Part shown: positions 5,286 to 32,055 of the stretch, piece after piece
How the letters are laid out: each line of letters begins with the position of its first letter
How positions within the stretch are numbered: the first letter of the stretch is position 1
DNA from: Dictyobacter arantiisoli
GTDB taxonomy: Bacteria > Chloroflexota > Ktedonobacteria > Ktedonobacterales > Ktedonobacteraceae
Length of the DNA stretch: 33,832 nt
NCBI RefSeq assembly: GCF_008326305.1
Contig: NZ_BIXY01000082.1
Location: forward strand, 1 to 33,832
Direction: 5' to 3'
Notes under the pieces: generated by a model
The model's database searches: none
Seen by the model: only the letters and a program-made list of their open reading frames with translations
Told to the model about the DNA's origin: nothing
Translations under genes and position numbers: made by a program

Positions 5286-5804
5286 GAGCGGTTACAAGCG
5301 ACGAACGTGAGCTATGACCCGCACAGCCCACAGCAACGATTGCTCATTGCGCTGAGCAACACGGGGACGCAACTGCTCCATCCCTTTGGCTCGTTCCATG
5401 TGCTGGACGATCACGGGCACGTGCTCCAAAACATTCCACTGGCGATGAGTGGGTTGCTCCCGCAGACGAGCATTGCGTATCCGGTCTACATGCAGCGTAC
5501 ACCGCTGCAGCCAAGCCAAACCTATACCGCAGAGCTCACGTTGCACTATGAGCATGGGCACGCCCTTCATTTCAACACAGCATTTACGGTGCCGCAGCCC
5601 CAAAGTCAACCATCACAGGTCCAGCTGATTCAGCATCTGGTAACGACACCCCTTGTTCATGCCCTCGGCCTGTTCAGCCAGCTAACACTCTGGCACTATG
5701 TCATTGTCATCCTGCTGCTCTCCGTAGCTGTTGGTATCTGGATCTGGCAACGGAAGAAAAAGCATCAATGCCTCCATCAGGCACAGAAAAAGTCACGCAG
5801 GTGA
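5265..5804 (+). pseudogene. C-terminal part of a DUF916/WxL-interacting-like membrane protein
   Basis: The reading frame gives 179 residues from a GTG. It resembles the C-terminal half of surface proteins of the DUF916/WxL-interacting type: a beta-rich external domain (about 1-110, with SNTGTQLLHPFGS and TYTAELTLHYEHGH), one membrane helix (about 143-161) and a basic cytoplasmic tail (WQRKKK). The signal peptide and N-terminal domain are missing, because the frame opens directly at the junction with a Tn3 transposase tail near 5270. A membrane protein of this topology without a signal sequence is unlikely to be correctly placed, so I treat it as a truncated gene. The family assignment is from memory of the motif pattern and is moderately sure. 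Confidence 0.55.
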
Positions 5805-7331
5805 GCGGGTTCTTGCGTGGAAGGGCATTGGGTGCCGCCGGCACAAGGTATCAGGAGATGACAGCAGAACCTGAAAATCGTTGCGGATTTCGCCTCATTG
5901 ACGACGAGCGCGAGACGCTTGTCCATATCCAGCCTGAGTGATCCGTAGGGTTCAACGTGTGCATAGAACAGTGGCGTCAAGCCGCGGTAATCCTCTTTGG
6001 TGAGGCGCTTCATCCATGTCTCGTCTTCGAGCACTTTTTGCACCATCAGCGTGTTGACATAGACCAGAGGAATTTGCAGCAGATGCAGCGCGAGCATGGA
6101 GATCTCCTGGTCATCTAAGCGATTGGAAGCAAACTCGCCTCCTTTGCCATAGTGAATGAACGAGTTGGCGGAATTCCAGTTCTCAATGACATTTAAGCCC
6201 TCATGAATTTCTCGCCGCAGCTCCTCCGATTCCAAGTACTGGCAGAGAAAAATGGTCTTGATCCACTTTGCCCGTGCGTGTCAACATAGTTTTTCTCAAT
6301 CTCAGCATCGGTGCAATGGCGCAGCAGTCCCTCAATCATCGCCGCTACCTCGGAGGAGGAGCAACTTTTGAGCTGGGAATAGATGCAGGTGGACTTTCTT
6401 TCGACGTGCCAGTAAATCAGAATGCCAGGACCACGATAGCGAATATGCCACTCGGTGAGCAGGTTCTGGTTCCACGCTCCGAATTTCTTGGAGTCGGAGG
6501 CACACGCTGTCGTGCCTTCGCCCCAGATGTCGGCACGCCTGACCTCAAAAATCGCATTGGCGACATGGGCGATGGCATTGCGCAGCTGCTCTTTGTGAAT
6601 GTAGCGAGAACGCACATAGCGCAGATCGGAGTCCGTGGTACCGGGGTCGGCGCTGGGCAACCGCTTGAAGCCAGTATTGGTTCCCAGGCCATAGAGACAC
6701 AGAAGCAGCCGCCGATGCAGAACGTCACGCGGAAGACGCTCTTGACTCGCGATACTGGTGAACACATCAGGAAAGCCTGTCAGGAGCGCGGTTTCTTTGA
6801 GCATATCGCGTAAGCTTGTCATGGACCAGCGGGTCCCTACTTCCTGTTTGAGACTGGCAAGGTTGCGCGGCTCCGGCTGTGCGAGGAGCGGCGTGATGCT
6901 AATGGGCTTCTTCTTTCCTCATCCTTGTCAACCACGAACTCACTCCACTTGGGTGCAACCACCTCTTTGAGAGGGATCATTTCATGATCTGGATAGTATT
7001 GACGAGGGCTACACACATATTCCTTAACCAACTGAATCGCTCGGATCACGGGCTGGTACAATTCATTGTTGGAGTGAAATTCAAGCATATCCAGGAGTTC
7101 TGGAACTATACGCCGATAGTGACGGCTGTAGGACGCACGCATAATCACATGCACCTGCTTACGAAACGCGGGGCTGTTTGTTTTGTGCTCTTTGATGAGA
7201 TCGCGCAAGAGCTTTTCACTGGCGACCTCAAAGACGACCATTAATTCATGAGCCTGCTTAGTTCCTTGAATAGAGAGAGTAGGAACTAGCAGCTTCTTCA
7301 TGAATAGAACGAAGAGCAACAATGAGCACAA
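5777..7331 (-). pseudogene. Tn3-family transposase (TnpA), remnant 2, two internal deletions
   Basis: Three frames on the minus strand give consecutive pieces of one Tn3 transposase. About 7310-6915 encodes LSIQGTKQAHELMVVFEVAS through APKWSEFVVDKD. About 6900-6265 encodes [17 protein letters not shown] through [11 protein letters not shown] (first catalytic Asp) and NYVDTHGQS (second Asp). About 6262-5925 encodes [20 protein letters not shown] through [11 protein letters not shown] (catalytic Glu) to the tail [15 protein letters not shown]. Frame breaks at about 6900-6912 and 6262-6264 coincide with missing family sequence, so both are deletions and not point frameshifts. The N-terminal third is also absent. 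The last 50 residues of the frame (5777 to about 5925) do not look like TnpA. All three DDE residues survive, but no active enzyme can be made. Confidence 0.8.
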
Positions 7332-7493
7332 TAACTGATACTTTTGATAGGTAAAATGGGTCTAAGTTCCTTGCCAGAAAAAAAGCGGAACTTGAAGCGA
7401 AGAGAGAAATAGCCTGTATTACCTGCTACTCTGCCCCTGGTGTCACAGATCGTAGCGGGACCCCAAGAAGCAGCGTTTCCGCACTTGAGGTCA

Positions 7494-7523
7494 TTGACAG
7501 ATCCATCCGCTTTCTTGTATAGT
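7494..7523 (+). promoter_or_regulatory. Sigma70-type promoter of padR
   Basis: A perfect -35 box TTGACA (7494-7499) is followed after 18 nt by TATAGT (7518-7523), five of six matches to the -10 consensus. The predicted start is near 7530. The -10 box lies inside the left arm of the palindrome at 7515-7573, which is the expected geometry for autorepression by the PadR protein encoded just downstream. Confidence 0.65.
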
Positions 7524-7573
7524 ACGTTCAACGACATGTCACCTTTCGACATGTCGTTGAACGTACTATACAA
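7515..7573. promoter_or_regulatory. Large perfect palindrome, probable PadR operator
   Basis: Two 26-nt arms (7515-7540 and 7548-7573) are exact inverted copies separated by ACCTTTC. The arms start TTGTATAGTAC and end in GACATGTC, which is itself palindromic, so that 8-mer also occurs as a direct repeat (7533-7540, 7548-7555). The structure overlaps the promoter -10 box and ends 2 nt before the Shine-Dalgarno sequence of padR. PadR regulators bind inverted repeats at their own promoters; two dimers could bind here. In RNA it would form a long hairpin just upstream of the ribosome-binding site. Confidence 0.7.
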
Positions 7574-7589
7574 TGAGGAGGAATCCTGT

Positions 7590-7904
7590 ATGGGGATGCC
7601 CAATCTAGGACGGTTTTCTGATCCGTCCATTCTCATTTTGACCAGCCTGGCTGGTGGCAACAAGCATGGGTATGCCATTATGGAGGATGCTGAGAAGATT
7701 GCCCGCGTGCGGTTAGGTACAGGAACTTTGTACGGAGCTATCGCGCGACTGGAGGAGTTCGGCTTGATAGAGGCCCTGCCCGCCGAGGAGCGTGGACGCC
7801 GCCCTTACCGCATGACAGCTACGGGGATCGCCTTCCTGCGCGAACAACTTACGAGCATGGAGGCCTTTTCGACACTGGGCCTGCAAAGGTTGGCGGCGTT
7901 ATGA
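7590..7904 (+). CDS. PadR-family transcriptional regulator
   Basis: This 104-residue protein is a PadR-type winged-helix regulator. The sequence shows ILTSLAGGNKHGYAIM (helix 1-2), GTGTLYGAIARLEEFGLIE (the recognition-helix signature) and RPYRMTATG (the wing). It ends soon after the wing and lacks the longer C-terminal dimer domain of PadR subfamily 1, so it belongs to the short subfamily. The start at 7590 is set by a strong AGGAGGA (7576-7582) 7 nt upstream. An in-frame extension to 7440 would translate through the palindrome and is rejected. Its stop overlaps the next start (ATGA, 7901-7904). PadR proteins usually repress efflux or membrane-stress genes and are released by small ligands. 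Autoregulation through the upstream palindrome is likely. Confidence 0.9.
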   Translation: MGMPNLGRFSDPSILILTSLAGGNKHGYAIMEDAEKIARVRLGTGTLYGAIARLEEFGLIEALPAEERGRRPYRMTATGIAFLREQLTSMEAFSTLGLQRLAAL

Positions 7905-8212
7905 ATATCTACCGACTCCTGCTGCGCCTTTATCCAGACGCCTGGCGCACTCGCTACGAAGAAGAATTTCTTGTTGTGCTGGCGGCCCATCCCTTTTCGG
8001 TAGCCGAGGGCATCGATGTTATACGCGGCGCGTTCGATGCTTATCTCCACCCCTACCTTGGAGTAAGCCCCCTATCTGAAAAACTATCACGAACATGTTC
8101 AGGAGAGTTGTATGCTTTCGTCACATCCACATTTGAAGAGATTGATCAGAATTATCTTGATCTTGCTGCTCACCTTCGTGGTCGTCATCGCTGCCAGTGT
8201 TATTACGCTTGA
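7901..8212 (+). CDS. Small PadR-associated protein, probably shortened
   Basis: The frame starts at the ATGA overlap with padR, so it is translationally coupled. The first 55 residues (MNIYRLLLRLYPDAW, YEEEFL, DVIRGAFDAYLHP) match a short conserved head that often follows padR genes in Chloroflexota and actinobacteria, where a membrane part usually comes next. Here the last 100 nt overlap the start of the hydrolase gene at 8112, and the residues after about 56 look unrelated to any family. The original C-terminus has probably been lost when the hydrolase gene was joined on. The function is unknown; a membrane or PadR-ligand role is only a guess. Confidence 0.5.
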   Translation: MNIYRLLLRLYPDAWRTRYEEEFLVVLAAHPFSVAEGIDVIRGAFDAYLHPYLGVSPLSEKLSRTCSGELYAFVTSTFEEIDQNYLDLAAHLRGRHRCQCYYA

Positions 8213-9299
8213 GGTTCAGCGCCATCGAACAGTCATGCTGCCTGCGCCGACTGGCCCTTCTGCCGTTGGGCGGGTGGAGTACGATTGGACCGACCCGTCA
8301 CGGAAGGATTCTCTCGCACCGCACGCGGGAATACAACGGGAGCTGGTGGTCTGGTCGTGGTATCCTGCTGCACGGGTACAGGGCGCGCACCCTGCCCCCT
8401 ACCTACCGTCGGAGTGGGCACAGGCGAGCGATAATCAGCTCGTACAGAGCAGCGATACGATTGAGACGCACAGTATTGATCGCGCTCCGCTTGCTCCAAG
8501 CGCGGCACAGTATCCCGTGCTCATCTTCGAGCCTGGGATGGGGAAGATCCCAACCCAATACACCGCGCTCCTCGAAGATCTCGCCAGCCACGGCTACGTG
8601 ATCTTCGCCATCACGCCGACCTATAGTTCTGACACAGTCGTTTTTCCCAGTGGACGTGTTGCTGCTTCAAGCTCGACAGGCAACCTCGATCACGCAGCAA
8701 ATCTCCAGATAGCGGGGAATCAACTGGTGTCAGTTTGGGCGAAGGACGTGCTCTTTGTCATGGATCAACTCAGCAAATTGAACACAACACCTGGCAACCT
8801 GTTGAACGGCCACCTTGATCTTACCAGACTCGGCGTTTTCGGACATTCCTTTGGAGGCGCGACCGCAGCCCAGGTTTGCCATCTGGATGCACGCTGCAAG
8901 GTGGGCATTGACATCGATGGAGATCTGTTCGGCAACGTAGTGCAAACAGGCCTCAATAAGCCATTCATGGTCATTCAGCACAACAGGGGTGCCTGCTCCG
9001 ATTCTGACTGTCTCGCATTCCGGCACGGGATTCAGGCAATCTTGCGTACCGTACCGCCAGGCATGAGGTATGAGATAAGCGTCAAAGGGACGGAGCACTT
9101 CAATTTTTCCGATTACGCCGTCTATTTCTCGTTCCTGCGTGCCTTTGGGCAGCTCGGCTCTATCGATGGGACCCGTGGATTGCAGATCACCCGCGCCTAT
9201 GTGCGCGCCTTCTTTGATACGTATCTGAACAACGCTCCTTCTCCGTTGCTGCAAGGTTCAACGAGTGCTTACCCGGAGGTGCAATTTGGGGGACCGTAG
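8112..9299 (+). CDS. PAF-acetylhydrolase-like alpha/beta hydrolase, membrane-anchored
   Basis: This 395-residue protein belongs to the platelet-activating-factor acetylhydrolase (isoform II) group of alpha/beta hydrolases, serine esterases that act on short acyl esters of oxidised or ether phospholipids. Visible are an N-terminal membrane anchor (about 9-30, after a basic head), the strand PVLIFEPGMG (oxyanion region), the nucleophile elbow GHSFGG with Ser246, a probable Asp in GIDIDGDLFG, and the His in GTEHFNFSDY. The catalytic domain would face outward. The ATG at 8112 follows AGGAGAG (8101-8107). It is the last gene of the padR operon and is followed by a strong terminator, so PadR probably controls it. 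The true substrate is unknown. Confidence 0.82.
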   Translation: MLSSHPHLKRLIRIILILLLTFVVVIAASVITLEVQRHRTVMLPAPTGPSAVGRVEYDWTDPSRKDSLAPHAGIQRELVVWSWYPAARVQGAHPAPYLPSEWAQASDNQLVQSSDTIETHSIDRAPLAPSAAQYPVLIFEPGMGKIPTQYTALLEDLASHGYVIFAITPTYSSDTVVFPSGRVAASSSTGNLDHAANLQIAGNQLVSVWAKDVLFVMDQLSKLNTTPGNLLNGHLDLTRLGVFGHSFGGATAAQVCHLDARCKVGIDIDGDLFGNVVQTGLNKPFMVIQHNRGACSDSDCLAFRHGIQAILRTVPPGMRYEISVKGTEHFNFSDYAVYFSFLRAFGQLGSIDGTRGLQITRAYVRAFFDTYLNNAPSPLLQGSTSAYPEVQFGGP

Positions 9300-9332: not shown

Positions 9333-9370
9333 TTTTTCTCTGACCTCTGCCAGCAGAGGTCAGAGAAAAA
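9333..9370. terminator. Bidirectional-looking intrinsic terminator after the hydrolase gene
   Basis: A perfect 17-bp inverted repeat (arms 9333-9349 and 9354-9370, loop CCAG) has a GC-rich upper stem (CTCTGACCTCTG) and runs of T and A at its base. It begins 34 nt after the hydrolase stop. Confidence 0.75.
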
Positions 9371-12425: not shown

Positions 12426-12484
12426 TTTTTATTATGTGATGTCGAAAAGGTTCGAAGAACCTTTTCGACATCACATAATAAAAA
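12426..12484. repeat. Perfect 28-bp-arm palindrome
   Basis: Arms 12426-12453 and 12457-12484 are exact inverted copies with a GAA loop. The arms run from TTTTTATTATG at the base to AAAAGGTTC at the tip. It lies 105 nt after the response regulator stop. It could terminate transcription in both directions, but the length and exactness are more like a fused pair of transposon ends or a palindromic mobile unit. A second hairpin, GCAGGCGC-gcat-GCGCCTGC (12489-12508), follows at once. Confidence 0.75.
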
Positions 12485-12572: not shown

Positions 12573-12628
12573 CCCGACCTAAGGGATCGGGCCTACGTTG
12601 CCCGGGGAGCCCGATCCCTTAGGTCGGG
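12573..12628. terminator. 20-bp inverted repeat downstream of purA
   Basis: Arms at 12573-12592 and 12609-12628 (CCCGACCTAAGGGATCGGGC and its exact complement) flank a 16-nt loop. The structure starts 18 nt past the purA stop on the minus strand. There is no clear T-run, so it may be a repeat element co-opted as transcript end. Confidence 0.55.
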
Positions 12629-19941: not shown

Positions 19942-19996
19942 ACGTGCCACTGACTTCGTGAGTCTGTGCGATCTTCGGGCATACGTTTTCTACAAC

Positions 19997-20046
19997 AGAG
20001 CAGAAAAAGAGACAGCCGGTTACACGCCTGTCTCTTTTTCTGCTCT
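19997..20046. terminator. Bidirectional terminator between the pseudokinase and JAMM genes
   Basis: A perfect 19-bp inverted repeat (arms 19997-20015 and 20028-20046, 12-nt loop) includes A5 and T5 runs within the stem. It lies between two convergent genes and can serve both strands. Confidence 0.8.
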
Positions 20047-20048
20047 GG

Positions 20049-31937: not shown

Positions 31938-31948
31938 GGCATAGTCTC

Positions 31949-31994
31949 AAAAAGAGAGCATCGGACACGTTACACTGTCCGATGCTCTCTTTTT
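31949..31994 (+). terminator. Strong intrinsic terminator of the liv-type operon
   Basis: A perfect 19-bp inverted repeat (arms 31949-31967 and 31976-31994, 8-nt loop) ends in TTTTT. It starts 11 nt after the livF stop. The A-run on the left also allows termination from the other side. Confidence 0.85.
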
Positions 31995-32055
31995 GTCTTC
32001 ATGCTGTCAATGCTGATGGGACGCAGTATGCAGCTATTGCTGGTGGAACGTTGCC

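Follow-up and report, generated by a model that had tools for sequence, protein, structure and literature searches.

The palindrome in a padR promoter of Dictyobacter arantiisoli is better described as a symmetric copy of a predicted 15-bp-period PadR operator array

PadR regulators are numerous, and most of them are uncharacterised. In the available portions of the reports on the closest described systems, (i) the published PadR consensus pairs ATGT with ACAT across spacers of about 8–10 (PMC3506622, PMC5428041), and LmrR binds the lmrCD operator as two dimers (PMC5428041); (ii) the operator of C. difficile cdPadR1 reads TACT-N11-12-AGTA, and this protein (structure 5dym) binds its own promoter, which carries two sets of inverted repeats and an AT-rich core, in several EMSA complexes (PMC5050560); and (iii) Listeria LftR, a 108-aa PadR-2 protein, acts on OP-1, a partly palindromic element at its own promoter that was studied as a 28-mer (PMC6457526). 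The last of these reports also describes two signature tyrosines of the PadR winged helix-turn-helix (wHTH) and their role, and states that little was known of how the short PadR-2 subfamily binds its operators (PMC6457526).

The window analyzed here, a 33,832-nucleotide stretch of contig NZ_BIXY01000082.1, encodes a 104-aa PadR protein (7590–7904, plus strand), identified by Pfam (PF03551; 42.2 bits against a gathering score of 27) and by a fold model. The AlphaFold2 model (pLDDT 89.3) is a winged-helix with a C-terminal helix like those of solved PadR proteins, and its best Foldseek match is 5dym (TM 0.79/0.85), i.e., cdPadR1, itself a short PadR (PadR-s2). The signature wHTH tyrosines, Y28 and Y48, are invariant in 23 aligned sequences and stand at the same residues, 28 and 48, as those reported for LftR (PMC6457526); the OP-1 site of LftR can be likened to the site in the window by its published description rather than by its letters. 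Moreover, in the window PadR and the six orthologs closest to it, the wing is longer by one inserted residue (GRGRRPY or ERGRRPY versus ER-RRPY), and a T replaces the P before GTLYGA (alignment residues about 44–70). Two genomes, G003 and G004, are placed in the same genus as the window genome.

The padR promoter, which is of the sigma-70 type, comprises a −35 box, TTGACA (7494–7499, plus strand), and, 18 nt further on, a −10 box, TATAGT (7518–7523, plus strand), which together match 11 of 12 consensus positions in a promoter scan; in the 15 tabulated padR promoters, the −35 box is TTGACA in 14 and TTGACT in one. The −10 box lies within the left arm (7515–7540, plus strand) of a perfect inverted repeat whose right arm (7548–7573, minus strand) pairs with it at 26 of 26 positions across a 7-nt spacer; the palindrome is thus TTGTATAGTACGTTCAACGACATGTC, 7 nt, and the reverse complement of TTGTATAGTACGTTCAACGACATGTC. 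The initial annotation had described exactly this, a consensus promoter with its −10 box in a palindrome having perfect 26-bp arms, and both the sequence and the inverted-repeat scan bear it out, as they do the two copies of GACATGTC that it had placed in the palindrome (7533–7540 and 7548–7555). A Shine-Dalgarno sequence, GAGGAGGA (7575–7582, plus strand), lies outside the palindrome, and the padR start codon, ATG, follows 16 nt downstream of the palindrome. The expected number of such palindromes in 7.2 Mb of random sequence is about 2e-8, which makes a chance origin negligible.

Six long palindromes are listed for the window, one of which (12426–12484, 28-bp arms) is longer than that of padR, and only the padR palindrome sits in a promoter. 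The other five (12426–12484, 12573–12628, 9333–9370, 19996–20047 and 31948–31995) are perfect palindromes with 18–28-bp arms (18–20 bp in all but the first), located in gaps after genes and having, in several cases, A/T runs at their ends; these are probably terminators. A terminator or attenuator at the padR palindrome was considered and rejected, a scan of 7250–8150 showing no terminator-like site, as was a divergent minus-strand promoter built on the mirrored TATAGT, for which the promoter scan has no entry.

A Tn3-family transposase, broken into at least three pieces, is located directly upstream of the padR promoter (5777–7331, minus strand), and a palindrome in such a place might be a mobile or transposon-derived inverted repeat, coming, for example, from this element. 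However, a DNA search of the genome with both orientations of the palindrome returned a single locus, all else being weak matches of 14–21 bp (E ≥ 0.5); an array of the kind described below occupies the same place before padR in other genera; and the sole inverted repeat of at least 16 nt found in 5600–7500 is a 73% one. We therefore consider a mobile origin extremely unlikely, and the circumstance that the initial annotation had named as counting against an operator, the same palindrome at many unrelated sites, is ruled out by the single locus.

In the window and in the six closest padR orthologs (79–85% protein identity to the window PadR), whose corresponding 59-bp stretches align without gaps, we determined that the same stretch forms an array with a 15-bp period, comprising three 9-bp boxes of the type CGTNNNACG and 6-bp linkers, with box 1 starting 1 nt past the −10 box. 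In the window, box 1 (CGTTCAACG, 7525–7533) is followed by linker 1 (ACATGT, 7534–7539), a degenerate middle box 2 that retains three of six consensus letters (CACCTTTCG, 7540–7548), linker 2 (ACATGT, 7549–7554) and box 3 (CGTTGAACG, 7555–7563), which lies 30 bp from box 1. Linkers across the seven promoters are ACATGT, ATATGT or ACATAT, with GAATAT found once; in G001 and G008 each of the two linkers reads ACATAT, without a change of orientation. Since each of the two linkers, like boxes 1 and 3, is symmetric in itself, the array in the window reads as one large palindrome, at the centre of which stands ATGT-N9-ACAT (7536–7552), close to the published PadR consensus.

The 15-bp translation is kept in all seven promoters and is the best period among 8–20 in six of them. 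Upon a 15-bp shift, the matches out of 24 are 12 in the window, 11 in G011:C6, 17 in G001, 15 in G011:C2, 17 in G023, 12 in G003 and 18 in G008; in G011:C6 a period of 10 (14/29) does about as well as 15 (11/24). Mirror matches in the core, out of 19, are in the same order 16, 18, 16, 12, 13, 10 and 8, the three misses of the window being its central spacer. With the repeat present in seven of seven promoters and the mirror ranging from 8/19 to 18/19, it is the repeat that stays constant, the perfect mirror being an extreme. The "very large palindromic operator" of the initial annotation thus stands as regards the palindrome, which is real, but what is conserved is an array of short boxes with a 15-bp period; from the sequence comparison, the padR palindrome is better put as a symmetric copy of a predicted 15-bp-period PadR operator array.

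Among the seven close promoters compared, the window locus has the longest unbroken symmetry. G011:C6 carries its own near-perfect palindrome, in which the differences from that of the window are mirrored, indicating that symmetry has been kept or renewed in more than one lineage. As to whether perfect symmetry arose twice, a tree of 13 PadR proteins left the seven close proteins largely without branching order. The perfect symmetry in the window would be due either to selection for strong binding or to template-switch repair, two origins that the data do not separate.

The initial annotation had further suggested control at the RNA level by a hairpin at the 5' end of the mRNA, and the selected feature could be such a hairpin, acting as a stability element or controlling padR translation, with or without a DNA operator. 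When 71 nt from the +1, placed by inference rather than mapping about 7 nt past the −10 box (about 7530), were folded for the seven promoters and compared with shuffles, the window leader reached −24.7 kcal/mol (z −3.51), and two others also folded well (L036, z −3.12; L013, z −2.25), but four of the seven folded much as their shuffles did (L016, z −0.74; L012, −0.41; L015, 0.05; L014, 0.60); the stem is thus not kept across orthologs, as it would be in a conserved cis-regulatory RNA. Two-sided changes that keep pairing occur at 7 of the 26 pairs, with a covariation of 0.203 against a shuffled mean of 0.142 (8 of 500 shuffles as high), but the symmetry of a DNA operator yields the same signal: in the DNA alignment, 82.4% of positions pair in the mirror register versus 22–47% when slid, as for any dyad operator. 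Furthermore, the same-orientation ACATAT linkers of G001 and G008 preserve the repeat but leave pairing incomplete, the Shine-Dalgarno sequence is outside the RNA stem, no Rfam family matches the window, and the untranscribed −10 region belongs to the symmetry. With the +1 at its inferred place, the mRNA can include no more than the inner 11 bp of each arm, so that the complete 26-bp stem belongs to the DNA and not to the transcript. RNA-level control is therefore not supported as a conserved function, and we regard a hairpin as the selected feature as very unlikely.

To return to the array as a DNA operator, box pairs were counted in a wider set of padR promoters, namely 36 Ktedonobacteria loci (omitting L031, L035 and the weak own-genome matches L008–L011) and 71 loci of other taxa (80, less eight duplicates of Ktedonobacteria loci and L074, which has no upstream DNA). 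Both the box and its spacing were derived from Ktedonobacteria, the set of other taxa was inspected before being counted, and many of its 71 loci are mutually related, so that the loci counted do not represent independent events. The distances separating 9-mers that resemble the box (five or more of six letters matching) peak in Ktedonobacteria at 15 (8 loci; 0.07 expected), 17 (5), 30 (7) and 32 (4), and in the other taxa at 14 (14; 0.42 expected), 15 (15; 0.45) and 17 (6; 0.55). A best pair at 14–17 bp scoring at least 10/12 was found in 12 of the 36 Ktedonobacteria loci (shuffles, 1.0) and 41 of the 71 others (shuffles, 3.3), as compared with 9 in 598 and 64 in 2385, respectively, for real slices taken away from the promoter. 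The remaining 24 Ktedonobacteria loci do not reach this two-box score, among them the window, in which 30 bp separate box 1 from box 3, a distance outside the scored range.

The 28 loci with 15-bp spacing have a consensus of roughly TATTACGTNNNACG-ATATAa-CGTNNNACGTAATA, in which linker-centred symmetry at non-box letters (137/224) exceeds the column-shuffle mean of 121 (0 of 200 shuffles as high); in the 15 loci with 14-bp spacing the linker is TAGTA. The axis of a bound dimer may lie on a linker, where the symmetry is the stronger, or on a box, matches centred there being likewise more frequent than in column shuffles when the spacing is 14 bp. Several loci with 14-bp spacing read TACTACGTNNNRCGTAGTA, i.e., TACT-N11-AGTA, like the cdPadR1 operator, although the cdPadR1 motif is without the conserved CGT/ACG letters, and the available part of PMC5050560 describes no fixed 15-bp period. 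The resemblance to LmrR, in the portions of its reports consulted, lies elsewhere: in both cases a PadR-family regulator appears to act on its own promoter at an inverted repeat, and the ATGT-N8(-10)-ACAT consensus is like the central ATGT-N9-ACAT of the window. In the window, however, the spacer is 9 rather than the 8 of the canonical ATGT-N8-ACAT, and ATGT/ACAT forms no more than the centre of a three-box array of 39 bp; of the 107 padR promoters, 104 lack ATGT-N8..10-ACAT, and the three that have it (the window, L013 and L036) each have N9, centred on box 2. In the literature as covered by titles and the beginnings of abstracts, a coverage that takes in few subscription journals, we found no 15-bp-period PadR operator.

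An operator for a regulator other than PadR would fit the facts that the box resembles the published ATGT-N8-ACAT in three copies only, at their centre, and that PadR binding is a prediction. Against this, the array goes with padR relatives across several phyla, in records named Chloroflexi, Bacillota-type genera, Acidobacteria and Actinobacteria, and an exact half-operator search of 61 genomes gave 18 matches, of which 10 lie at padR promoters (reversed control pattern, 26); we therefore hold another regulator to be very unlikely. A regulon of unlinked genes was rejected as well, half-operator matches outside padR promoters being at background. Within the genome, a search for the half-operator, of the kind that the initial annotation had proposed for the arm upstream of other padR genes, gave exact matches here only, and two of eight one-mismatch matches lie in the padR promoter of a paralog (contig C131, about 1376–1470; L007, L136) that is 74% identical, has three boxes at 17- and 15-bp steps, and is followed by a 308-aa gene 2.

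LmrR controls an ABC transporter operon, and the padR operons of the relatives appear to be of this kind. In G003, G023, G008 and G011:C2, padR is followed by genes for a 304–309-aa protein, an ABC ATPase, a protein of 305 aa and a further protein similar to the hydrolase of the window. G001 has gene 2 and the hydrolase but lacks the two ABC genes between them, and G011:C6 showed no comparable gene row after padR. Pfam, run on gene 2, the ATPase and the permease of G003 and on gene 2 and the hydrolase of G001, assigned the G003 ATPase to ABC_tran and the permease to the ABC-2 type, and gave no match for gene 2 of either genome. In the window, gene 2 is truncated (7901–8212, plus strand), its first approximately 60 residues matching the 306-aa protein of relatives and the rest not, the ABC genes are gone, and the PAF-acetylhydrolase-like alpha/beta hydrolase (8112–9299, plus strand), a downstream operon gene in relatives, is kept, with 70% identity to that of G001. 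A deletion that fused the beginning of gene 2 with the region of the hydrolase appears to have removed the ABC genes, and, in an operon disrupted in this way, the switch may be in decay or have taken on another use.

The initial annotation's operator inside the padR promoter is upheld by comparison: box 1 begins 30–32 bp after the start of the −35 box in 15 of 15 tabulated padR promoters, the array is found before padR relatives in several phyla, and the palindrome is unique in the genome. Overlapping the promoter of the regulator itself and conserved with its gene, as a PadR autoregulatory operator is, the palindrome is probably the autorepression operator of the 104-aa PadR, and DNA-level autorepression is well supported by comparison. 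PadR dimers would bind the array across the −10 box and the start site, probably two or three side by side and cooperatively, for which the two-dimer lmrCD operator of LmrR (PMC5428041) is a precedent, although three may be too many, given that the middle box has so few consensus letters. Bound PadR would occlude RNA polymerase and repress the padR operon; upon binding a ligand, PadR would leave, and padR would be switched on together with the genes downstream of it, which would be the 304–309-aa protein, the ABC transporter and the hydrolase in the relatives, and the truncated gene 2 and the hydrolase here. The wing insertion and the T before GTLYGA accompany the operator with ACATGT/ACATAT linkers and may determine its specificity.

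More tentatively, short PadRs (about 100 aa) of at least four phyla might share one grammar, in which CGTNNNACG boxes recur every 14, 15 or 17 bp near the −10 box, dimers assemble cooperatively as overlapping dyads, and array length and symmetry set the strength of autorepression. With such an operator pattern at a fixed promoter position, the operators of many short PadRs would be predictable from sequence.
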